Shown one piece after another: positions 6,312 through 28,991 of a DNA stretch of 38,522 nt; position 1 is the stretch's first letter, and each line of letters starts with the position of its first letter. A program made the translations under genes and the position numbers. The notes under the pieces are model-generated. The model was not told the DNA's origin, searched no databases, and was given only the letters and a program-made list of their open reading frames with translations. The stretch is from Candidatus Kuenenia stuttgartensis (GTDB lineage Bacteria; Planctomycetota; Planctomycetia; Pirellulales; UBA1268), in assembly GCA_945897435.1 (NCBI GenBank), contig CAMDFJ010000011.1, forward strand, positions 1 through 38,522. Direction: 5' to 3'.

Positions 6312-8603
6312 ATGCGTCTGACCGTCCGAACCCTGCTCGCCTGGCTCGACAACGTCCTGCCGGCCGACGAACAGCACGAACTCGGCGACAAGGTGGCCGC
6401 CAGCGCCGCAGCCCAGCAGCTCGTAGAACGAATTCGGAGGGTGGTCGAGAGGCCGACCGTGCCGGCGCCACGGGTTGATGGAAAGGGACTGGCCAGGGAC
6501 GCAAACTCGGTCGCCTGCTTTCTCGACAACACGCTCGAGCACGACCGGCTCGAGGAATTCGAGCGGGTGCTGATCGAGTCGGACATGCACCTGGCAGAAG
6601 TGGCCGCCTGCCACCAGCTGATCGCGACGTTTGCCGAGGATCCGCTCTCCACCATGCCGCTCGACGAAGAACGTCGTGCCCGGCTGCTGGCAGCGATGCA
6701 GCATCGCCTGGCAGTCCGGTTTGCGGCCGTTGAACGCGAGGAGCAGGTTGCCAATGCCCAGGCGGTCGGTGCCGCGCTGCAGTCGACCGCCGCTGCCGGC
6801 GGGAACGACGCCAGAGGGTTTGGGGATCAGATCGACACGGTGCTCATCGATCGCCGGGTTCCAGGTGCGGCCTCCGCAGGCAGCCAACGGCGATCCTCGA
6901 TGGCGTCCTGGGCCTCGGCGTTGGCGGCGCTCATGCTGCTCCTGCTGCTCGGGGGATTGCTCTACCGTTCGCTCGCCGGTCGGCGGGATGCGACCGCGGC
7001 AGCAAAGGCCGCTGTGGCGAATCCTGCCGAGGTGGCGGCTGCCGCCGCGACTGTGCCGCCCGAGGTGGTCAGTGAGCCGCCGACCGAGCCGCCGACCGAA
7101 CAGCCTGCGGCAGCGGTATCACCAGAGCCGGCGACAGCGGCGACTCCGGAGCCGACTCCAGAGCCAGTGGAAATTGCGGTCGACGAAGGCATGGTCGCCG
7201 AGTCCCCGCCGACCGCTGCTCCTGCTCCTGCTCCTGCTCCTTCGACCGACATGCCGCGGGTGCCGCAGGGCGATGCCCTGGCGATCGCGGCCCCTCTTCT
7301 GCCCGCTCCGCCATCACCACCGGCCGCGGGAGTTCCGAGTGGTCAAACGCCGCAGCCCACAACGCCATTCGATCCGCCGTCGTCACCGGAACCAACTCCC
7401 GCCCCAGCCATTGGATTCGTGGCCAACGGCGGCATGCTGCTGCACAGGGTCGTGCTGCCGGCCGTCGCCGGAGCGGCAGCGCGAGCGGTCTGGGTGCCAT
7501 TCGCCCCTGAGGCGGCCCTGGAACCGCGGGAGGAGGTACTCGTTCCGGCGGGTGCCTATCCAGAGGTCAGCCTGGGGGGCGTGACGATCCGTCCGCTTCC
7601 GGCGACCCGGGCGACGTTGACCGTCGATCCGGATGGCACGCCGCGGATTGAGATCGCCTTCGGCCGGGTCGTTGCCCGTGCGAGTCGGGGCGATGCCCGT
7701 CTGGGCGTGATCGCCGGCGGGCTGTCAGGCACGATCATGGCGGGGCTGCTCGCGCCGGTCGCGATCGGGGTCGAACTCGATCGACCGCCAGGCAGCGACC
7801 CGACGCTCGATCCGGCACGGGTTCGGGCGGGGATCACGACCGCCGCCGGTGGCATCGTCTGGAAGCAATCGGCTGTCGACGGGGAGATGCTCGCGGGGAT
7901 CGGTCCCGAGGGCATGCTCGATGCCCGACAGTCGATCCTCTGGGACGGGGCGAAGCCGCGGGTTGCCGCTGTCGTTCGCCTGCCGGCGCCACCGAGTTGG
8001 CTCGAGTCGTTCCCCCAGAGTGATCGCGTCGAGCGCGGGGCCGGCGAGGCGCTCGCGGCACGGATCGCCTCCGGCACGCCCTTCGATCGGGCACTTCGCG
8101 AGATGTCGTCTGACCGCCGTGCCGAGAACCGGATGCTCGCCGCCAGCACGCTGGGGATGCTCGGAGAATACGACGAGCTCGTGGAACTGCTGGGGAGCGA
8201 GGGGGCGGGGCGGAAGCTCGAAAATCGCCAGTGGCTCTCGCTCGAGGGGGCGACCGTGCCGCTGGCCCTGGCACGGGGGGAGATGTCGGCCGGCCGGCTC
8301 CACGAGACCTTCGATCGCATCGGCCCTCCAGGCCGAGGAGAGCTCCTGTTCCGGATGGCCTGCGGCTTCAGCGACGAACAGCTCGCCGCCGGTGCCGATG
8401 CCGAGCTCGTCGCGGCGCTCGAGGACAGCTCGCTTGTCGTGCGGCGGTATGCCTTCAAGTGCCTCTGCGAGATCGTCGGGCCCTCGGCGGCCGACAAGGC
8501 GAAATACCGTCCGGACGGTCTGCCGGAACTCCGTCAGGAGGGGGTCAGCTGGTGGCGCAGCCAGCAGGAAAAAGCCGCCATCCGCTGGCTGGAACGGCGA
8601 TGA
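6312..8603 (+). CDS. Large single-pass membrane protein with duplicated anti-sigma-like N-terminus
   Basis: The protein has 763 residues from the ATG at 6312, with GGGAGA about seven bases upstream. Two similar helical units open it: LLAWLDNVLPADEQHELGDK (8-27) and ACFLDNTLEHDRLEEFERVL (68-87), each followed by a helix ending in a hydrophobic pair. This layout is reminiscent of zinc-free anti-sigma domains. One membrane helix lies at about 200-218 (SALAALMLLLLLGGLLY), then a long proline/alanine/glutamate spacer to about 380 including an AP run. The rest is soluble: a strand-rich middle (VSLGGVTIRPLPATRATLTVD) and a C-terminal helical-repeat region (from about 600). I do not recognise a catalytic site. 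The topology predicts a cytoplasmic sensor-like head and a long periplasmic part. An envelope-sensing role is inference only. Confidence 0.7.
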   Translation: MRLTVRTLLAWLDNVLPADEQHELGDKVAASAAAQQLVERIRRVVERPTVPAPRVDGKGLARDANSVACFLDNTLEHDRLEEFERVLIESDMHLAEVAACHQLIATFAEDPLSTMPLDEERRARLLAAMQHRLAVRFAAVEREEQVANAQAVGAALQSTAAAGGNDARGFGDQIDTVLIDRRVPGAASAGSQRRSSMASWASALAALMLLLLLGGLLYRSLAGRRDATAAAKAAVANPAEVAAAAATVPPEVVSEPPTEPPTEQPAAAVSPEPATAATPEPTPEPVEIAVDEGMVAESPPTAAPAPAPAPSTDMPRVPQGDALAIAAPLLPAPPSPPAAGVPSGQTPQPTTPFDPPSSPEPTPAPAIGFVANGGMLLHRVVLPAVAGAAARAVWVPFAPEAALEPREEVLVPAGAYPEVSLGGVTIRPLPATRATLTVDPDGTPRIEIAFGRVVARASRGDARLGVIAGGLSGTIMAGLLAPVAIGVELDRPPGSDPTLDPARVRAGITTAAGGIVWKQSAVDGEMLAGIGPEGMLDARQSILWDGAKPRVAAVVRLPAPPSWLESFPQSDRVERGAGEALAARIASGTPFDRALREMSSDRRAENRMLAASTLGMLGEYDELVELLGSEGAGRKLENRQWLSLEGATVPLALARGEMSAGRLHETFDRIGPPGRGELLFRMACGFSDEQLAAGADAELVAALEDSSLVVRRYAFKCLCEIVGPSAADKAKYRPDGLPELRQEGVSWWRSQQEKAAIRWLERR

Positions 8604-8646
8604 GAACCCCGTTTTTCGCTCCCGCGGGCCGCGGCATGCAGGTGGT

Positions 8647-8676
8647 TTGTCGAAGCTCTGGAGTGGGTGATATGCT
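8647..8676 (+). promoter_or_regulatory. Possible sigma70-type promoter for hpf-ptsN
   Basis: TTGTCG (8647-8652) and TATGCT (8671-8676) are separated by 18 bases and lie about 110 bases before the hpf start, in the spacer after the large membrane protein. Each hexamer matches four of six consensus positions or fewer, so this is a weak prediction. Confidence 0.25.
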
Positions 8677-8789
8677 CCAGGGAAGTCGCTCATCGATCAC
8701 TCATGGGCTCGGGCGGATCGGCCAACGCCGGGTCTGTTCCCCGTGCCGATCGAACCCTGTTTCGCCCTCGTGAAAGGATTGGGTCTACG

Positions 8790-20024: not shown

Positions 20025-20098
20025 GTGGCTATAGCTCAGTTGGTTAGAGCACTAGATTGTGATTCTAGGGGTCGCGGGTTCGAGTCCCGTTAGCCACC
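20025..20098 (+). tRNA. tRNA-His (anticodon GTG)
   Basis: The acceptor GTGGCTA pairs with TAGCCAC, D arm GCTC/GAGC, anticodon stem CTAGA/TCTAG with loop TTGTGAT (anticodon GTG), and T arm CGGG-TTCGAGT-CCCG. The genomic G at 20024 is the G(-1) that histidine tRNAs carry, opposite discriminator C at 20098. The following bases are CTT, so CCA is not encoded. It lies 66 bases upstream of pspA with no obvious terminator between, so read-through into the cluster is possible. Confidence 0.96.
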
Positions 20099-20164
20099 CT
20101 TTCGTTTCTTGCCCAGATCCATTTCGCTCCCACGCCTCCCCCCGACTTTTTGGAGACCCCGACG

Positions 20165-20914
20165 ATGATCCTCGGCAAACTCTGGAAGACGCTCGCCGCG
20201 CAGATGAACAAGATCGCCAACTACTTCTGGACGGCCGACCCGGTCGCCCAGCTGCAGTACGAATACGACAAGGCTGTCGATCAGATGAAGGAGGGCCGTG
20301 AGGGCCTCGAGCAGTATCGGGCCCTGGTCGAGCGGGTGACCCGGCAGGTGAACGGCGACCGCGAGCACGTTGCCCAGTTGGAGGCTCGAATCAGGGCCTA
20401 TCTCCAGGCCGGCGAACGGGAGACAGCCTCGAAGTTTGCCCTCGAACTTCAGCGGGCCAAGAAGGACCTCTCCGAGAACGAGGCCCAGCTCAAGCTCCAC
20501 GAGACCGCCTACGGCAACAACGTGACGAAGATCAAGCACGCCACGAAGAAGCTCGCCGATCTCAAGCAGAAGATCCAGAAGTACGATGCCGAACTGAAAC
20601 TCAGCCGTGCCGAGGCCGAACTCGCCAAGCTGGCCAACAGTTTCAATTTCGACGTCACCACCGACTTCGGCCAGATCGAGGATGTGATCCAGGACAAGAT
20701 CGGACTCAACCGGGCCAAGGTTCGGGTCGCCGCCGATCTCTCCGGAGAGGGCATGGAAAAGATCAAGACCGAGCAGGCCGTCGAGCGGAACATGGCCGAC
20801 CAGGCCCTGCGGGAGTTCGAGATTGAGATGGGAATGGTGACGCCCGAGACCGCCGGCGTGACCGCCGACGACAAGGAACTCGGCGCGGAGCGACTGAGGC
20901 AGACGCAAGGCTGA
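20165..20914 (+). CDS. pspA: PspA/IM30-family membrane-associated protein
   Basis: The 249-residue protein begins at the ATG at 20165 behind GGAG. It starts with an amphipathic helix (MILGKLWKTLAAQMNKIANYF) that in PspA inserts into membranes. The body is a long coiled coil: DPVAQLQYEYDKAVDQMKE, then EHVAQLEARIRAYLQAGERETASKFALELQRAKKDLSENE and LKQKIQKYDAELKLSRAEAELAKLANSFNFD, the family's typical hairpin. A short tail follows (VTPETAGVTADDKEL). PspA belongs to the ESCRT-III superfamily and polymerises on stressed membranes to limit proton leakage. It heads a same-strand row with AAA+ and ABC-transport genes. No pspF, pspB or pspC homologue is adjacent. Confidence 0.9.
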   Translation: MILGKLWKTLAAQMNKIANYFWTADPVAQLQYEYDKAVDQMKEGREGLEQYRALVERVTRQVNGDREHVAQLEARIRAYLQAGERETASKFALELQRAKKDLSENEAQLKLHETAYGNNVTKIKHATKKLADLKQKIQKYDAELKLSRAEAELAKLANSFNFDVTTDFGQIEDVIQDKIGLNRAKVRVAADLSGEGMEKIKTEQAVERNMADQALREFEIEMGMVTPETAGVTADDKELGAERLRQTQG

Positions 20915-20955
20915 GTCGCGGAGATTCCATTCCTAATCCCAGAGAGGAGCCAGCA

Positions 20956-22836
20956 ATGGCAACCGCTCCAGCAGCAACCGGGTCGGCAGCAGCCCCCGGA
21001 TCGGTGACGACGCAGTCGGAGACCCCGCACTCGGCCCTCGGCACTTCAGCGGGCACGGCGGGTCCTGGCGCCTCGCTCCCGGCCTGGTGTCCTGCCTGGG
21101 CCGAGCGGCTCGGCGACGCCTACCTCTCCGGCACGAGTTGCATGTTTCTGCTCCATGGAAACGTCCGCGACCTCGTCGCGATTGCGGCTCCCGGACAGGA
21201 TGTGGCCGCCGGCTGGGGCACGGTTCCCGACTTCCTCGCCCGGGAAATGTTCGGCCGCTGGGATATTGTCCTGGCCTACGATGTCGGCAAGGGATTGCGG
21301 CCGCTTGCCGGGCCCGATCCAAACCGACTGCGGACGATGGCCCAGTGGCTGACCGAGCGGATGGGCAACGCCACCACCTGGCCCCGCGACCCCGATGCAG
21401 CCATCGCCGCGATCGACGCCCTCCTCGAGCGGAATCTGCTCGAGGCCCCGGAGCAGCGGAAGCGGATCGCGATCCTGCTCGATTATGCCCAGTATCTTGC
21501 CCCGGCGGGCGATGCCGCCTCCTCGGCCCGGGCTGGCGCCGGACGGCTCGTGCGGCTGCTTGCCTGGGCCACCAACCCGCTGCTGCGGCGGGTGAACGTG
21601 GCGATCGTGCTCCTGACCGATGCCATGTCGGAGATGCATCCGCGGCTGGTGACCAATCCCGCCGTGACCACGATCGATGTGCCGCTGCCCGACGCCGAGG
21701 AGCGGGAGCGGTTTGCCCTCGCCACGGCGACAGCCGCGGGCGTTCCGGCCGAAAAAATGGATGCCGTAAAGCGGACGGCGGCCCTTTCCGGTGGGCTCTC
21801 TCTCGAGAGTCTGAGGGCGGTGATCACGATGTCGGCCCGCGAGGGAAACGATCCCGACGGGCCGGAGTTTGCCCTCAAGAAAAAGGACCTGATCGAGCGG
21901 TCCTGCCAGGGGCTGATCGAGTTCATTCAGCCGCGTCTCACGCTCGATGCAGTCGCCGGCCACGCCGAGGCGAAGAACCGGCTCGAATCCGACGCCCGGG
22001 CCATCAAGCGGGGACAGTTCGAGAGCGCCCCAATGGGCTACCTGATCTGTGGCCCGGTCGGCACGGGAAAGAGCTTCATCGCCGAGTGCTACGCCGGCAG
22101 CGTGGGTATTCCCTGCGCGGTGCTGAAAAACTTCCGCAGCAAGTATGTCGGTGAGACCGAGGGCAACCTCGAGCATGCACTCGACGTGCTCCGGAGCCTC
22201 GGGCCGGTCGTGGTGATCATCGACGAGGCCGATGCGGCCCTCGGCAACCGGGAGCAGGGGGGCGACTCCGGCACCTCGGCCCGGGTGTTCTCGATGATCG
22301 CCCGGCAGATGGGCGACACCCGCTATCGCGGCAAGATCGTCTGGATGCTGCTCACGAGTCGCCCCGACATGCTGCCGATCGATCTCAAGCGGCAGGGCCG
22401 AGCCGAGGTGCACATCCCCCTCTTCTATCCGCACGATCAGGCGGAGATGGAGGCGATGTTCACGGCGATGGCCCGGAAGTGCAAGGTCAAGCTGGCCCAG
22501 GGATTGCCCGGTCCCGTCGATCTCGAACTCGGCCTCTCGGGTGCCGACATCGAGAGTGTCGTGCTCGCCGCCCGACGCAAGGGACTCGAGCGGGCCGCCG
22601 AGGCGGGCCAACCCGCCCCCGACACAATCACGGCCGAGGATCTCGGTTCGGCACTCGACGACTTCATGCCCTCCGCTCAGGGCCTCGAAAAGGAGATGCA
22701 GGAGATCGCCGCCGTGCTCGAATGCACGGAGAAGAGATTCCTCCCCGAACGCTGGAAGGAAAAGGTCAGCCAGCCGGGCGGCCGGTCACGGCTGCAGGAG
22801 CGGCTCGCCGCCATTCGCGAGGTTGTCAGCAGCTGA
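20956..22836 (+). CDS. Two-domain AAA+ ATPase, Ycf46-like (degenerate N-domain plus active C-domain)
   Basis: The 626-residue protein starts at 20956 behind AGAGGAG. After a disordered first 40 residues, residues 45-310 look like a AAA fold without Walker A: FLLHGNVRDLV, then IAILLDYAQYLAP at a Walker B-like position and IDVPLPDAEERERFA. Residues 315-600 form an active domain: KKDLIERSCQGLIEFIQPRLTLDAVAGHAEAKNRLE, Walker A GPVGTGKS (366-373), Walker B VVVIIDEADAAL, sensor LLTSRPDMLP. This order matches cyanobacterial/plastid Ycf46. The C-domain probably forms the working hexamer. By analogy with Vps4 acting on ESCRT-III, it might remodel PspA polymers; that is inference. It follows pspA by 41 bases. 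Confidence 0.8.
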   Translation: MATAPAATGSAAAPGSVTTQSETPHSALGTSAGTAGPGASLPAWCPAWAERLGDAYLSGTSCMFLLHGNVRDLVAIAAPGQDVAAGWGTVPDFLAREMFGRWDIVLAYDVGKGLRPLAGPDPNRLRTMAQWLTERMGNATTWPRDPDAAIAAIDALLERNLLEAPEQRKRIAILLDYAQYLAPAGDAASSARAGAGRLVRLLAWATNPLLRRVNVAIVLLTDAMSEMHPRLVTNPAVTTIDVPLPDAEERERFALATATAAGVPAEKMDAVKRTAALSGGLSLESLRAVITMSAREGNDPDGPEFALKKKDLIERSCQGLIEFIQPRLTLDAVAGHAEAKNRLESDARAIKRGQFESAPMGYLICGPVGTGKSFIAECYAGSVGIPCAVLKNFRSKYVGETEGNLEHALDVLRSLGPVVVIIDEADAALGNREQGGDSGTSARVFSMIARQMGDTRYRGKIVWMLLTSRPDMLPIDLKRQGRAEVHIPLFYPHDQAEMEAMFTAMARKCKVKLAQGLPGPVDLELGLSGADIESVVLAARRKGLERAAEAGQPAPDTITAEDLGSALDDFMPSAQGLEKEMQEIAAVLECTEKRFLPERWKEKVSQPGGRSRLQERLAAIREVVSS

Positions 22837-22937
22837 ATCTGGATCCTTCAGCCCCGTCGTTTCCTTTCCGAGCCTCGAATCACCCCCCATCAGTTTCCCC
22901 CGTTGCCATCAACCGTCACCTGAGGAGAAGACCCCCC

Positions 22938-23243
22938 ATGTCGAAGCAAGCCACCGCGAAGACCCCCTGGTTCGATGCCGCCAGCGATTCGCCGTTGCTG
23001 GCCGAGTATGCCCGCAAACTGGATTCGTTTCTCGACGTCGTCGCCGATGGCAAGGTCGATTCCAGGGAACTGGAGGCGCAGGAGAAGCGGGTCGTGAGCC
23101 TGATGAAGGAAGTGGAGCCGATGCTCTCCCCCGAGGCCCATGACAAGGTGACGCAGCTGCTCTGCGAGGTCACGGCCTACGACCTGATGAACACCTTCCA
23201 CATGGCCGGAGTCTCGCGGCCCAGGACCAAATTCCAGGGCTAA
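22938..23243 (+). CDS. Small acidic helical protein of the PspA cluster
   Basis: The 101-residue product starts at the ATG at 22938 with GAGGAGA upstream. It is mostly helical: LLAEYARKLDSFLDVVADGKVDSRELEAQEKRVVSLMKEVEPML, then EAHDKVTQLLCEVTAYDLMNTFHM. The DGKVDSRELE stretch is EF-hand-like in pattern (D-G-K-D-S-E), but one motif of this length does not prove calcium binding. There is no signal peptide or membrane helix, so it is probably cytoplasmic. I do not recognise the family. Its fixed place between the AAA+ gene and the transporter suggests an accessory role to either. Confidence 0.7.
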   Translation: MSKQATAKTPWFDAASDSPLLAEYARKLDSFLDVVADGKVDSRELEAQEKRVVSLMKEVEPMLSPEAHDKVTQLLCEVTAYDLMNTFHMAGVSRPRTKFQG

Positions 23244-23320
23244 GCCGCGAGCTTTATCCCAAGGCCCACGTCAACCATTTACGGTCTCATAAACTGTCTC
23301 AATCAAGGGGTAATGCGATC

Positions 23321-25120
23321 ATGGCAGGGCAACCGAGGGCTCCATTCTGGCTGGCCGTCTGGGCGGTGATCCTCGGACTCGTCGGCCTTTCGGCCTGGCG
23401 GGCCGGCATGCTCGAGCAGTTCGGGTTTGGCCGGCCCGGCGGTCTCGGGCCGCGGCCCGTGGCGGGTGGAGGGCAGGCGCCTGGAACTGGCGGTGTCGGC
23501 GGCGGGCAGGCTGCAGGCGGTTCCCCGGCCCCGGGTGGCGGCGGTCTCGAAGGCATGACCGAGGCCCCGGACGTGTCCGTGCCGACGACCGTGAAGGAAT
23601 ACACCTTCAAACCGGCCGAGAAACTCCCTCCGGTGAAGGGCGTCAGTGCCTACAAGCCGCTCCAGGACGACACCGTGCGGTTCGCGCTCAACGTCTGGGC
23701 GGGCTGGAGTCCGATCATTCATGCCAACAACGGGTTCAAGGCGGGCAAGGTCTGGCAGGCACCAGGCGGTAAGCCCTTCAAGATCGACCTCGTACTTATC
23801 GACGATCCCGTCCAGATGCGGGATGCCTACGCCGCCGGAGAGGTTCATGTCGGCTGGGCGACCCTCGACATGATTCCGCTGTTCATCGACAGTTTCTCGA
23901 AGGATTCGCGGATCATGCCCCGGGTCTACCAGCAGGTCGATTTCTCGAACGGAGGTGACGGGATCGTCGTCCGGGATTCGATCAAGACGGTCAAGGACCT
24001 CGCCGGCAAGACGCTGGTCCTTGCTCAGAACTCGCCAAGCCAGTTCTTTGCCCTGAACATGCTCGTCGCCGGTGGCCTGCAGCCGGCCGACGTCCAGATG
24101 CGTTACGTCAACACGGCCTTCGAGGCGGCCGCGGCATTCGACCAGGACAAGAGCATCGCTGGCTGCGTGTCCTGGGCTCCCGACATCTACAACCTCGCCA
24201 AGGCGAAGGGCAACCGGATGCTGGTCACGACCCAGACAGCAAACCGACTGATTGCAGACGTCTGGTTTGCGCGGGCCGACTTCGCCAAAGACCATCCCGA
24301 CAAGATCGAGGCGATTGTCCGCGGCATCTTCGACGGCATGCAGGAACTGAAGAGCGAGTCGGCCCGGGCGAAGGTCGCAACGCTGATGGCGGATGGCTAC
24401 AACATCCCTGCCGCCGACGCTCTCGGGATGCTCGGCGACGCCCACAGCACCAACTGGGCCGAGAACTACCAGTTCTTCGTCAACCGCAACAATCCTGCGA
24501 ACTTCGAACGGATCTGGAAGCAATCCTCCTATCTCTACCGCCGGATCGGTGCCCTCTCCAATGCGGCGGTGCCCTTCGATCAGGTGATGGATTTCTCGGT
24601 GATCCAGAAGCTCGGAGCCGAGCCGAAGTATGCCGAGACGAAGGATGAATACCTGACAACTCTGGCACCCAAGAGCGTCCAGCAGATTCGGGCCGAGAAC
24701 GAGGAAATCCTCACCAACACGATCGTCGTCCACTTCTTTCCAAACAGCTCCGATCTGCGGAAGAAGGTGATTCGGCGGATCGATGGCCGCGAGGTCGAGG
24801 AGCCGTACGATCCGACGATCGACCTCGTCCTCGATGAGGCCGGACTGCTCGCCAAGCAGTTTGGCAACGCCCGGATCGTGGTCGAGGGGCATACCGACGC
24901 ATCGATGAAGGGGGCCGTGCCGGCGGCGATGGTCAGGGAACTGTCGCTGGAGCGGGCCAAGGCCGTGAAGGATGCGCTCGTCGGGAAGTTCAAGTTTGAC
25001 GACAACCGATTTGCCGTGGACGGGCTCGGCTGGGATCGTCCGGCCGACCATGACAACCCCGACAACCACGCGCTCAACCGTCGCGTGGAGATCAAGGTTT
25101 ATTCAGCGGAGAAGGAATGA
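23321..25120 (+). CDS. Membrane-anchored substrate-binding protein fused to an OmpA peptidoglycan-binding domain
   Basis: The 599-residue protein begins at the ATG at 23321 behind AAGGGGT. One membrane helix lies at about 8-28 (PFWLAVWAVILGLVGLS), without a convincing cleavage site, so it is probably an anchor. A glycine-rich linker runs to about 80. Residues 110-430 form an NMT1/TauA/SsuA-type binding domain: FALNVWAGWSPIIHANN, AGEVHVGWATLD, DGIVVRDSIKTVKDLAGKTL. Residues 475-597 are an OmpA-like domain with VEGHTDAS near 523 and NRRVEIKVYS near the end, the residues that bind peptidoglycan diaminopimelate. This would tether the binding protein between inner membrane and cell wall. The stop overlaps the permease start (ATGA), so the genes form a translational unit. 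The ligand is unknown. Confidence 0.85.
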   Translation: MAGQPRAPFWLAVWAVILGLVGLSAWRAGMLEQFGFGRPGGLGPRPVAGGGQAPGTGGVGGGQAAGGSPAPGGGGLEGMTEAPDVSVPTTVKEYTFKPAEKLPPVKGVSAYKPLQDDTVRFALNVWAGWSPIIHANNGFKAGKVWQAPGGKPFKIDLVLIDDPVQMRDAYAAGEVHVGWATLDMIPLFIDSFSKDSRIMPRVYQQVDFSNGGDGIVVRDSIKTVKDLAGKTLVLAQNSPSQFFALNMLVAGGLQPADVQMRYVNTAFEAAAAFDQDKSIAGCVSWAPDIYNLAKAKGNRMLVTTQTANRLIADVWFARADFAKDHPDKIEAIVRGIFDGMQELKSESARAKVATLMADGYNIPAADALGMLGDAHSTNWAENYQFFVNRNNPANFERIWKQSSYLYRRIGALSNAAVPFDQVMDFSVIQKLGAEPKYAETKDEYLTTLAPKSVQQIRAENEEILTNTIVVHFFPNSSDLRKKVIRRIDGREVEEPYDPTIDLVLDEAGLLAKQFGNARIVVEGHTDASMKGAVPAAMVRELSLERAKAVKDALVGKFKFDDNRFAVDGLGWDRPADHDNPDNHALNRRVEIKVYSAEKE

Positions 25121-26040
25121 CCCCGTCCGGGCCGAACGAGGCTTCGCGGTCTGGGCGGGAGCCCGCTCCTGCCCGTCCGCTGCGAGGTCAGGTGCCTGCA
25201 GCCACGGCGGTGCTCTGGGGCCTGACATGCATCGCGGCCGTGCTCGCCGCATGGTTCATTGCCACGGCCGGCGAGGCGGAGAGCCGGATGATCGGGCCGG
25301 CGACGCTGCCCAGTCCGGCCGAAACAGTTTCCGCAGTCCCCCGCGTGTTCGGTGAGCGAAGGCTCGTGGCCAACACGCTCGTCACGCTCAGCAGGGTCTG
25401 CCTCGGGTTCGGTCTCACCACGGCGGTCGGCGTTCCGCTGGGCATTCTGGCCGCCTGCTTTCCGGCGCTGCGTGCCTTTGTGGCGCCGCTGACGGTCTTC
25501 GGCCGCAACATCCCCGTGGCGGCTCTGATCCCGCTGACATTCTTCTTCTTCGGTATCGGCGAGTTTCAGAAGGTGATGTTTCTCTTCATCGCCAGCGTCG
25601 CCTTCGTCGTCAGTGACACCACGGCGGCGGTGCTGGAGGTGCCGGAGCGGTACGTCGACACGGCCCGAACACTCGGCGCCTCCCGACTGCAGATCATCAC
25701 CAAGGTGCTTGTCCCGCTGGCGGCCCCCGCGATCTTCAACTCGCTGCGGCTGCTGTTCGGCATCGCCTTCGGCTACGTGATGCTCGCCGAGGTGGTGAAG
25801 TTCGGCGGCGACGCTGGCGGGCTCGGCGACCTGATCAACATCTCGCAGCGCCGCGGTGAGCGGGAGCCGATCCTGATCGTGCTCGTCGTGATTCCGCTCG
25901 TTGCCTATCTGATCGATCGGGCGCTCTGGTGGCTGCAGTGCGACCTGTTTCCGCATCGCTATGGCGGCCGTGGTTGGCTTCCGCGGTTTGTCCGCGGAAT
26001 CCTTCACGGGTTCTCTCCGGCCGGGGAGGTGACGCCATGA
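25117..26040 (+). CDS. ABC transporter permease, SsuC/TauC type
   Basis: The 307-residue protein overlaps the previous stop by four bases (ATGA at 25117). Hydrophobic segments include VLWGLTCIAAVLAAWFIA, LGFGLTTAVGVPLGILAACF, VAALIPLTFFFFGIG, VMFLFIASVAFVVS and ILIVLVVIPLVAYLIDRALWWL, about six to seven in all. The loop that contacts the ATPase reads DTARTLGASRLQIITKVLVPLAAPAIF, the EAA motif of binding-protein-dependent importers. It is homologous to taurine, sulfonate and nitrate permeases, so a small organic or inorganic anion is a reasonable guess. It pairs with the ATPase gene that overlaps its own stop. Confidence 0.92.
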   Translation: MTPSGPNEASRSGREPAPARPLRGQVPAATAVLWGLTCIAAVLAAWFIATAGEAESRMIGPATLPSPAETVSAVPRVFGERRLVANTLVTLSRVCLGFGLTTAVGVPLGILAACFPALRAFVAPLTVFGRNIPVAALIPLTFFFFGIGEFQKVMFLFIASVAFVVSDTTAAVLEVPERYVDTARTLGASRLQIITKVLVPLAAPAIFNSLRLLFGIAFGYVMLAEVVKFGGDAGGLGDLINISQRRGEREPILIVLVVIPLVAYLIDRALWWLQCDLFPHRYGGRGWLPRFVRGILHGFSPAGEVTP

Positions 26041-26912
26041 CCGAGCCTGTCGCCGCGGCCCAGACGGGTGAGGCATCCCAGCCCGCCGCCGTCGATTTTC
26101 AGCACGTGACCAAGATCTACGGCATCGGCACGCCGCGGGAATACGTGGCCATCTCGGACGTCACGTTTTCGATTCCCGACCTGCCCGGCCACGGCGAAAT
26201 ATCGTCGTTTCTCGGGCCCAGCGGCTGCGGCAAGAGCACCGTGCTCAGGCTGGTGGCGGGTCTCGAGCCGCAGCATCCCCCCACGCGTGGAACGGTCAGC
26301 GTGCTCGGCCGCGAGGTGGTCGGTCCGGGGGCTGATCGCGGCATGGTCTTTCAGGACTACACCAGCTTCGACAACCGCACGGTCCTCGACAACGTCGTCT
26401 TCGGGCTCGAGTGCCGCGGCACGCCACGAAGGCAGCGGGAGGACGAGGGCCGCGACTGGATCGCGAGAGTCGGGCTCGATCCGGTCCGGGATGGCGGCAA
26501 GTATCCCCACGAACTCTCCGGTGGGATGCGGCAGCGGGTGGCAATCGCCCGAACGCTGATCCTGCGGCCGCGGGTGATCCTCATGGATGAGCCGTTCGGT
26601 GCGCTCGATCCCGCCACCCGGCTCGACATGCAGGACCTGCTCGTGAAGCTCTGGCGGGAGGTCGAGGCGACGGTCCTGTTTGTGACGCATTCGGTCGAGG
26701 AGGCGGTCTACCTCGGCGACCGCGTGTTCGTGATGGCGACGACACCCGGCAGGATCGCCGACGAGGTGCGGATGCCGGTGGCCTCCGCCCCCTCGCGGGA
26801 GACGCAGTCGGAACCCTGGTTCCGCGAGCAGGTTGAGGCGTTGCACCTGCGGATCGAGCAGGTCGAGGCGGCCGCCAAGCGTCCTGGTGGTTCGAACGGG
26901 GAGCGTTTCTGA
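26037..26912 (+). CDS. ABC transporter ATP-binding protein, SsuB/TauB type
   Basis: The 291-residue product starts at the ATG of an ATGA overlap with the permease. Walker A is GPSGCGKS (60-67), Q-loop VFQDYTSF, signature LSGGM (160-164), Walker B VILMDEP (180-186) and H-loop FVTHSVEEAV. It has the KIYG opening and the C-terminal SSUB-like tail. It is the nucleotide-binding half of the importer and would be powered in a 2:2 complex with the permease. The Q-loop has YTSFDNRTV in place of the usual LPW-type stretch, a mild divergence. Residues beyond about 255 are a helical extension of unknown role. Confidence 0.93.
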   Translation: MTEPVAAAQTGEASQPAAVDFQHVTKIYGIGTPREYVAISDVTFSIPDLPGHGEISSFLGPSGCGKSTVLRLVAGLEPQHPPTRGTVSVLGREVVGPGADRGMVFQDYTSFDNRTVLDNVVFGLECRGTPRRQREDEGRDWIARVGLDPVRDGGKYPHELSGGMRQRVAIARTLILRPRVILMDEPFGALDPATRLDMQDLLVKLWREVEATVLFVTHSVEEAVYLGDRVFVMATTPGRIADEVRMPVASAPSRETQSEPWFREQVEALHLRIEQVEAAAKRPGGSNGERF

Positions 26913-26913
26913 C

Positions 26914-27768
26914 ATGTTCAACCGATTCGGTGCCTACCTGCGGACGGCCTTCGCCAACCGGTGGAACCTGCTCTTGTTCGGTGGCGGGATCGCGGCCGCA
27001 GTGATCAGCGGATTTCCGGGAGTGCTCCTGCCGCTGGTCGCCGCGGGGGAGTTTTATTATCTGGCGAGCATGCTGGCGAACGATCGCTTTCGCAGTGCCG
27101 TCGAGGCTCAGGATGCGAAGGCCAGGCGGGCGATGGATTCGGCCGGCACGCGGGAAGCCTACGAACGGATCCGACAGCAGCTCCCGAAGCCGCTGCTCGC
27201 CAGGTTCGACCAACTGCGTGACCACTGTCAGAAACTGCTGGAGCTGGCCCGTGGCATGCGCGGGCCTGGCGAGACTGAGCCCGACGGAGGCACACTCGAA
27301 TCACTCGATCGGCTGCTCTGGGGGTATCTGAGGATGATCTGGGGTGCCGCCACGCTCTCGGAATTTCTCGACCATACCGACGAGGGGCCGATTCGAGGCC
27401 GGATCGCCGACCTCGAGAAGCGGCTCGCGCGACAGCCGCAGACCGGCAAACCTGGGGATGAAGAAGCGGATCGCCTCCGGGCCGCGCTCGAGGATCATCT
27501 GAAGACGAGCCGCGAACGGCTCGAGAACATCGAGGAGGCGAAACGCAAACTCGACACGGTTGCCGCGGAGATCGAGCGGCTCGAATCGAAGATCGCCGCA
27601 CTGGCCGAGGGATCGGTGGCCCGCAGGGACGTGAGTGACATCGCGACCAGAGTCGACGAGGTGGCCGAGGGAATGCGACGGACCGACGAGGCGATGCGGC
27701 AGTTTCAACTGCCCCCAGAACTTGAGGACCTCGACGAGCCACCACAACTGTTGCGGGAAGAGGCTTAG
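26914..27768 (+). CDS. Membrane protein with long C-terminal coiled coil (PspA-cluster terminus)
   Basis: The 284-residue protein starts at the ATG at 26914 behind GGGGAG, two bases after the ATPase stop, so it is co-translated with the transporter. The N-terminus holds two hydrophobic segments around residues 18-50 (WNLLLFGGGIAAAVISGF, GVLLPLVAAGEFYYLA). The rest is strongly helical and charged, with a heptad-like stretch around 160-255 (DRLRAALEDHLKTSRERLENIEEAKRKLDTVAAEIERLESKIAALAEG). No catalytic motif is visible and I do not recognise a named family. It may be a scaffold linking membrane to PspA, whose own body is a coiled coil, but this is a guess. The next gene is convergent. Confidence 0.7.
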   Translation: MFNRFGAYLRTAFANRWNLLLFGGGIAAAVISGFPGVLLPLVAAGEFYYLASMLANDRFRSAVEAQDAKARRAMDSAGTREAYERIRQQLPKPLLARFDQLRDHCQKLLELARGMRGPGETEPDGGTLESLDRLLWGYLRMIWGAATLSEFLDHTDEGPIRGRIADLEKRLARQPQTGKPGDEEADRLRAALEDHLKTSRERLENIEEAKRKLDTVAAEIERLESKIAALAEGSVARRDVSDIATRVDEVAEGMRRTDEAMRQFQLPPELEDLDEPPQLLREEA

Positions 27769-27836: not shown

Positions 27837-28991
27837 TCAATCCAACCAGTCGGCGTCTGCCAGTCGCTCGGGCGTGTAGGTCTCGGTGACGTAGCTGATG
27901 TCCTTCGAGATCAGCGACTCGACCTCCAGCTTGAAGCCGTTCTTGAGCATCGTCTCGATCTCCTTCTGCCAGCCCTTCTTGCCCGCAAACCAGGGGTAGG
28001 CGGCGATCTGCTTGGCCCGTTTGATGTCGGTGTCATTGAGCGCGATCTGGACGCTCTGCGAGAGTTTGCAGCGGTCGTAATCGCGGGAGCGGATGCCGAG
28101 GAAACGGGCCTCTGGGATCGCCATCCGTTTTGATTCGTAGGCGAGGTTGATCGAGCCCTGCTTGAGCACTGAATAGATGTAGTAGCCCCAGGGATCGTTG
28201 TCGAGAAGGCAGTAGACGGGGAGTTTGAGTTCGTGGTGGAGTCGGTAAAGCATCCGGCGGACACCCCGGGGCGGTTGGCCACCGCCGTGGGTCAGCAGGC
28301 AGTTGTGCTTCCTCCAGAACTTGTCCTCGTTGAACCGCCTCCAGACGGTGTCCTTCTCGACGTGGAGGATGAACTTCGCGTCGCACTGTTTGAACCGGAC
28401 GATGTCGGCCTCGACGATCGATGGGATCGAGTATCCACCCGATCCCATCCGAGAACAGTCGATCTCGTCGCCGGAGTCGATGAGCGTGATCGGCCCGACC
28501 ATGCCGCCGCGATTGCTGGCATAGACGTGCAGTTCCTCCCGCAGGCTCTGCAGCGACACCTCCAGATCCTCGATGATCGGGTCGCACTCTTCCTGGGTGG
28601 CGAAGGTTTCCTCGCGGGTGCCCTCGATCGTGTGCTTGAGCAGGTAGTAGAGACCTCGGATGCTGGTGGTCTTCTGCTGGTCGATCAGGGCCTTGCAGCC
28701 GGTCGCCACGAGCAGCGTCTGCATGTAGCTTTTGGCCTGCGAGAGGTTGAAGAGTTGGCGGCAGTTGGTCTGCGGACCCATCTCGATGATCTTCCGCGAC
28801 TTGTTGAAGCGGACGTTCGAAAGGCTGCGGGTGGGAATGTCGAGGTGAGGATCGCGGCGCTTTTCGGCAGCCGCCGCCACCCGGTTGGCAAGATCGACGA
28901 TCAGGCCGAGGGTCTTGGCGTCGACCGGGGGAAGTTTTGCCTTGGCGGTTGCTGGTGCCGCAGGCTTCTTCGCTCGCTTCGTGGTGGCCAT
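27837..28991 (-). CDS. DNA topoisomerase VI subunit A-like protein (Spo11/Top6A family)
   Basis: The 384-residue protein carries the Top6A landmarks. The 5Y-CAP region reads TTSIRGLYYLLKH (108-120), where the second of the paired tyrosines (Y116) aligns with the DNA-cleaving tyrosine. The Toprim region has the glutamate in HVEKDTVWRR (E212) and LLDNDPWGYYIYSVLKQGS (D264, D266), almost identical to the archaeal TDGDPWGYYIYS stretch. A basic alanine/lysine N-terminus (1-20) precedes. Topoisomerase VI is typical of archaea and plants and needs a GHKL subunit B; none is encoded beside it in this window. It could pair with a distant B subunit or work alone as a Spo11-like nuclease. It sits alone between convergent and hairpin-rich flanks. 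Confidence 0.85.
   Translation of the reverse strand: MATTKRAKKPAAPATAKAKLPPVDAKTLGLIVDLANRVAAAAEKRRDPHLDIPTRSLSNVRFNKSRKIIEMGPQTNCRQLFNLSQAKSYMQTLLVATGCKALIDQQKTTSIRGLYYLLKHTIEGTREETFATQEECDPIIEDLEVSLQSLREELHVYASNRGGMVGPITLIDSGDEIDCSRMGSGGYSIPSIVEADIVRFKQCDAKFILHVEKDTVWRRFNEDKFWRKHNCLLTHGGGQPPRGVRRMLYRLHHELKLPVYCLLDNDPWGYYIYSVLKQGSINLAYESKRMAIPEARFLGIRSRDYDRCKLSQSVQIALNDTDIKRAKQIAAYPWFAGKKGWQKEIETMLKNGFKLEVESLISKDISYVTETYTPERLADADWLD

Follow-up and report, generated by a model that had tools for sequence, protein, structure and literature searches.

Seven genes in the window (the whole 38,522-nucleotide contig CAMDFJ010000011.1, from a 3.0-Mb planctomycete draft genome) encode, in order, PspA, an AAA+ ATPase, a small helical protein, a solute-binding protein fused to an OmpA domain (SBP-OmpA), the permease and the ATPase of an ATP-binding cassette (ABC) importer, and a coiled-coil membrane protein. 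PspA and the AAA+ protein are the core of this cassette, and PspAs linked to the AAA+ protein carry a conserved short tag, [KR]-x-[LIM]-G, within the last residues of the C-terminal tail. The explanation that we favour, and hold to be somewhat probable, is that the AAA+ protein works as a motor like Vps4 and seizes PspA at this tag, the importer being an accessory envelope module. The operon is not new; the tag on PspA is the new element, and it may show how the AAA+ protein takes hold of its partner, as Vps4 does of ESCRT proteins in humans.

PspA and the AAA+ ATPase form the core

The window PspA scores 49.8 bits with the Pfam PspA_IM30 model (cut-off 33.9), is the sole match to that model found in its genome and has a mean column identity of 72% with 35 relatives. 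Among 244 Planctomycetota genomes, PspA of the cassette type occurs in 19, all of which also have the AAA+ protein (Fisher's test, 2e-19); a further 15 have the AAA+ protein only and 210 have neither. The genome search was a loose first pass that can miss distant PspAs, and a profile search of the neighbourhoods located divergent PspAs beside the AAA+ gene in two of the 15 AAA+-only cases (L150 and L151). The two genes are adjacent in most genomes, importer-free pairs included. Many other Planctomycetota genomes contain canonical PspA_IM30 proteins, mostly without this AAA+ protein. The link between PspA and the AAA+ protein, which a sequence-only reading of the window had proposed, is thus strong.

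A conserved tag in the tail of PspA

The AAA+-linked PspAs have a disordered, low-complexity C-terminal tail bearing the tag, often with a proline next: the window protein has KELGA, and KELGP, KTMGP, KSMGP, KTIGP, KEIGP and other variants are found elsewhere. Canonical PspAs end in an ELxALK-type helix and lack the tag. Because a strict [KR]x[LIM]GP pattern fails on the window's own tail, the looser [KR]x[LIM]G was adopted; shuffled tails carry it in 2.5% of cases. It lies in the last 20 residues of 85 of 90 AAA+-linked PspAs and of 1 of 34 canonical ones (non-redundant, 18/20 versus 1/26; Fisher's test, 1.2e-9), counts that are tilted slightly toward our hypothesis by L193, which was at first a canonical control, ends in KTIGP and was reassigned to the linked PspAs ahead of the count; its genome, G124, has two AAA+ matches. 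In Acidobacteriota, the last 25 residues contain the tag in 22 of the 24 complete PspA open reading frames (ORFs) beside an AAA+ gene.

The tag could instead be an inherited trait of one PspA clade and bind another target, such as the membrane, the coiled-coil protein or a protease. The AAA+-linked, tag-bearing PspAs do form one deep clade in our tree, apart from the canonical PspAs, and they often have the coiled-coil protein as a neighbour too. However, tag-bearing PspAs can be as little as about 27% identical overall, so the tag has outlasted most of the sequence of the PspA body. It is also kept in loci that have PspA and AAA+ genes and no detected small protein or importer, which points to the AAA+ protein as the receptor. 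Furthermore, the tag disappears where the link to the AAA+ protein is lost. G040 and G053 have a PspA with no tag in its last 20 residues, and no AAA+ ortholog was found in either genome. In G060 and G061 (Aquisphaera insulae), the cassette is split and has two PspA copies; the one adjoining the AAA+ gene has KQLGP or RQLGP, whereas in the one adjoining the importer the tag is lost or eroded. The second PspA of the split cassettes was predicted first and then found, tagged, beside the AAA+ gene; it was the untagged PspAs of L076 and L109 that led to its discovery. The tree places the losses in three separate events, a small number that we therefore take as support and not as proof. We conclude that a clade trait with another target is unlikely, although it deserves to be kept in mind, and we prefer the AAA+ protein as the partner of the tag.

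We note that in the Acidobacteriota loci L227, L228, L230, L235 and L238, the ORF upstream of SBP-OmpA ends exactly in QKTM or QKTL, which is perhaps a shortened tail tag; the ORF of L230 was confirmed as PspA. The same loci have a further conserved ORF upstream, with WGxTVxGWFVV or a similar stretch.

The AAA+ ATPase as a candidate motor

The Pfam AAA model (78.3 bits) matches the C-terminal half of the AAA+ protein only. The protein has a Walker A motif (GPVGTGKS at residue 366), a pore loop (SKYVGE), a Walker B motif (IDEAD) and two arginines (R479 and R482) as arginine fingers, all strictly or almost strictly conserved across 30 relatives; Afg2 and Cdc48 are its closest relatives of solved structure. 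To judge by these motifs, the C-terminal half is an active classic AAA domain. The N-terminal half is conserved as well; its identity as a degenerate AAA domain was considered and not confirmed, Pfam seeing a single AAA domain.

We suggest that PspA forms polymers at the inner membrane, on its inner leaflet, and that the AAA+ ring would disassemble or reshape the polymer with ATP, as Vps4 does with ESCRT-III. The AAA+ protein, perhaps via its N-terminal half, would recognise [KR]-x-[LIM]-G at the far end of the disordered tail and thread the PspA chain through its pore, which the SKYVGE loop lines. An optional adaptor role could fall to the small protein, and the coiled-coil protein could be the membrane anchor of the assembly. 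The importer would be a separable module that places the uptake or sensing of a solute where PspA is at work; its binding protein would be fixed to the inner membrane by its anchor and to peptidoglycan by its OmpA domain.

A pairing of PspA with an AAA+ protein is already known in PspA and PspF (PMC8281802, PMC11746142), and any direct contact between the two partners would fit the distribution of the tag. The AAA+ protein could thus be a regulator or chaperone that is controlled by PspA, like PspF of E. coli, rather than its motor, and the tag an inhibitory contact. We think this very improbable in view of the position of the AAA+ protein in the classic Cdc48/Afg2-like clade and its threading-type pore loop; moreover, the Pfam scan revealed no DNA-binding family in it, unlike PspF with its Fis-type domain. 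A Vps4-like role, which the sequence-only reading had also had in mind, is in our opinion the best reading of the AAA+ protein.

Several observations nevertheless weigh against a Vps4-like motor that grips the tag. The tag pattern was chosen after the tails had been inspected, and the Acidobacteriota are the only set examined afterwards. The contrast between linked and canonical PspAs counts relatedness, because the linked PspAs are one clade; independent support for the link between tag and AAA+ protein rests on the three loss events, and the short length of the tag weakens the case. Relatives of the AAA+ protein, mostly more distant ones, occur without a detected PspA. The sensor-1 asparagine is replaced by S, C or A (TSRPD, TCRPD or TARPD), so the ATPase activity may be unusual. 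A profile comparison of the N-terminal half with the C-terminal half was not significant, leaving the N-terminal half unmatched to an AAA fold. Finally, a Pfam scan that admitted matches up to E = 0.1 showed no MIT domain, and the AAA+ protein is therefore not a member of the Vps4 family, although by analogy it could work like Vps4. The CdvC model gives it 44.9 bits against a cut-off of 650.

The importer is an optional block

Relatives of SBP-OmpA were retrieved by searching genome contigs, and the flanking genes were then mapped; 30 loci have enough flanking sequence, 6 kb on the upstream side of SBP-OmpA and 6.8 kb on the downstream side. In 28 of them, the genes for PspA, the AAA+ protein, the small protein and the coiled-coil protein accompany SBP-OmpA on one strand, in the order PspA-AAA-small-SBP-OmpA-coil (25 loci) or PspA-SBP-OmpA-coil-AAA-small (3 loci). 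One of the two exceptions lacks the AAA+ and small proteins, the other lacks these and PspA. The set occurs in Planctomycetota and, in the second order, in Acidobacteriota (L087, L097, L099, L102, L108 and L111). The set is kept through rearrangement and is therefore a functional unit, and its conservation in 28 of 30 loci excludes a chance arrangement. The conserved neighbourhood expected by the sequence-only reading is thus real, and SBP-OmpA is usually found with both PspA and the AAA+ gene.

That SBP-OmpA is so rarely away from PspA and the AAA+ gene, that two gene orders retain the same genes and that one PspA copy remains beside the importer in the split cassettes of G060 and G061 would also suit an integrated machine, in which transport is the purpose and PspA and the AAA+ protein assemble or repair the importer across the envelope. 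This was the proposal of the sequence-only reading and is part of that of Ravi et al. (mSystems 2024, PMC11237479). However, three genomes from the window's own family (G001, G013 and G014) have the PspA, AAA+ and small-protein genes at the same chromosomal site, with the next genes of the chromosome directly behind them; the topoisomerase VI-A gene follows the small-protein gene in G001 and G013, and in the window it follows the coiled-coil gene. Neither SBP-OmpA nor the coiled-coil protein was found in these three genomes, and there is no importer in the 19-kb neighbourhood of PspA-AAA+-small protein in the single-contig genome G238. Many of the genomes are drafts, and absence was trusted only where contigs continue; those of G001, G013 and G014 do, so assembly gaps do not account for their missing importers, while the loci of G002 and G005 end at contig edges, where a gap is possible. 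PspA-AAA+ or PspA-coil-AAA+ alone is common, and conversely L069 has the importer and coiled-coil protein in a genome in which no PspA or AAA+ gene was found. Absence at the same site in relatives makes the importer an optional, removable block and rules it out as an essential core. We therefore consider the single joined machine unlikely and retain the importer as an accessory module.

SBP-OmpA matches OmpA (40.4 bits, cut-off 27.2) and NMT1 (35.7 bits), and hydropathy gives it a single N-terminal membrane anchor at residues 7-25. In the OmpA part, whose nearest PDB entry is 3td3, D526 and R545 (the peptide-holding Asp and Arg) are invariant in 27 relatives; they are 19 residues apart, the usual spacing in OmpA domains being 15 residues. 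With its anchor and this invariant pair, SBP-OmpA probably bridges the inner membrane and the cell wall. The permease scores 66.9 bits with BPD_transp_1 and 118.8 bits with the SaoP model, which is under the cut-off. The importer ATPase scores 90.9 bits with ABC_tran, and its nearest models, TauB and SaoA, are likewise under their cut-offs; all NCBIfam transporter models fall far below their equivalog cut-offs on the importer proteins.

Three loci are unusual. The contig of L103 is labelled Deltaproteobacteria (Myxococcota in the tree label), and its cassette PspA nests among planctomycete PspAs, which indicates either transfer or a mis-binned contig. L116 (G042) has two small ORFs between PspA and the AAA+ gene (7942-8717), the second of which looks by eye like a PIN-domain toxin. 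In L124 (G049 C4, 7076-13699), a distant AAA+ relative (27% identity) lies beside an SBP-like protein without OmpA, a protein with a VWA domain and an OmpA protein encoded separately; no PspA was found in the genome, and L124 is possibly a PspA-free variant with the SBP-OmpA fusion split.

The small protein and the coiled-coil protein

The small protein has no Pfam or NCBIfam match but is conserved in 38 relatives. Its AlphaFold model (predicted local distance difference test, pLDDT, 84) has four helices and no fold match in the PDB; an MIT-like adaptor was considered and rejected, there being neither a sequence nor a fold match. Homologues with 62-73% identity are present in G007, G011, G017, G020, G027, G031 and G034 (for example L126 and L127), genomes in which no PspA and no orthologous AAA+ protein were found; the small protein thus also lives outside the cassette.

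The coiled-coil protein has no family in Pfam or NCBIfam. Its AlphaFold model (pLDDT 87) consists of nine helices with an N-terminal membrane hairpin and a long coiled coil, and a simple hydropathy scan shows one strong segment. Foldseek against the PDB returned nothing at E<=0.001; CdvB2 appeared only at E=0.59, which does not support the protein as a proven ESCRT-III relative. Importer-free Acidobacteriota loci commonly have the coiled-coil gene between PspA and the AAA+ gene (scores are low, about 28-76 bits), and the protein therefore belongs at least as much to PspA and the AAA+ protein as to the importer.

The gene row in the window

ORFs and family searches confirm that all seven genes are real, lie on the same strand and are placed as the sequence-only reading had them (Table 1). 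Genes one to four are separated by 41, 101 and 77 bp. The close packing described for the last four also stands, with 4-bp overlaps at the SBP-OmpA/permease and permease/ATPase junctions, except that the ATPase and coiled-coil genes are one base apart rather than two. No terminator-like site was found on the + strand between the seven genes, and no promoter-like site in the row by a sigma-70 consensus scan, which is weak evidence in this phylum. The topoisomerase VI-A beside the operon belongs to a type IIB topoisomerase, which is less usual in bacteria.

Table 1. Genes and features of the cassette and its flanks in the window
Feature	Position	Strand	Basis or remark
tRNA-His	20025-20099		65 bp upstream of PspA
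PspA (ESCRT-III superfamily), 249 aa	20165-20914	+	Pfam PspA_IM30
PspA tail motif K237-E-L-G240, candidate AAA+ docking tag	20873-20884	+	Tag distribution
AAA+ ATPase, 626 aa	20956-22836	+	Pfam AAA, residues 363-488
Small helical protein, 101 aa	22938-23243	+	AlphaFold helices, kept in relatives
SBP-OmpA, NitT/TauT-type solute-binding protein + OmpA domain	23321-25120	+	NMT1, OmpA
ABC importer permease, SsuC/TauC/SaoP type	25117-26040	+	BPD_transp_1
ABC importer ATPase	26037-26912	+	ABC_tran
Coiled-coil membrane protein, N-terminal membrane hairpin, 284 aa	26914-27768	+	AlphaFold; no family
DNA topoisomerase VI subunit A	27837-28991	-	TOP6A-Spo11 Toprim, 198.8 bits

Comparison with known systems

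The gene set had been thought undescribed, a novelty that we reject: section 18 of Ravi et al. (PMC11237479) describes an operon that encodes PspA, an AAA+ protein, an ABC ATPase, a permease and a PBPB-OmpA protein (example protein OGG56892.1), all five of which the row in the window also has. Their AAA+ protein has two AAA domains, the N-terminal copy being inactive, and they propose that remodelling is coupled to transport and to contact with peptidoglycan. The 'Snf7 homologs with a TM (transmembrane) segment' in their account may be our coiled-coil protein. In section 18 there is nothing on the small protein, on whether the importer is present or absent at one site, or on the tail tag; the main text, as searched, has no match for Planctomycetota or Acidobacteriota and says nothing of a motif at the C terminus of PspA.

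The importer resembles TauABC, SsuABC and the SaoPAX of NCBIfam in the architecture of permease and ATPase and in the fold of the binding protein, but here the binding protein is fused to OmpA and anchored in the membrane. PspF and PspA of E. coli are similar in that an AAA+ protein is paired with PspA; PspF, however, is a transcription activator of the NtrC type that PspA inhibits, whereas the AAA+ protein described here is Cdc48/Afg2-like.

The existence of a Vps4 equivalent for bacterial PspA and Vipp1 has been described as an open question (PMC8281802), and chaperones or PspF have been suggested in that role (PMC11746142). The AAA+ protein is now a named candidate, and the tail tag reduces the question to an experiment with one peptide. 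Like ESCRT-III and Vps4 (CdvB and CdvC), the pair combines a polymer protein of the ESCRT-III superfamily with a classic AAA+ protein that has an aromatic pore loop, and the C-terminal tail of the polymer protein has a conserved short motif. The differences are that neither an MIT domain nor the Vps4 C-terminal family was found in the AAA+ protein, that its sensor-1 asparagine is absent, and that the polymer protein is a bacterial PspA rather than Snf7. The tag is unlike MIM1 and MIM2, the MIT-interacting motifs (MIMs). We judge it an even question whether the two proteins are the bacterial counterpart of ESCRT-III and Vps4, in which [KR]-x-[LIM]-G would act as a MIM does while being unrelated to it, and the AAA+ protein would be the missing dedicated motor for PspA disassembly.

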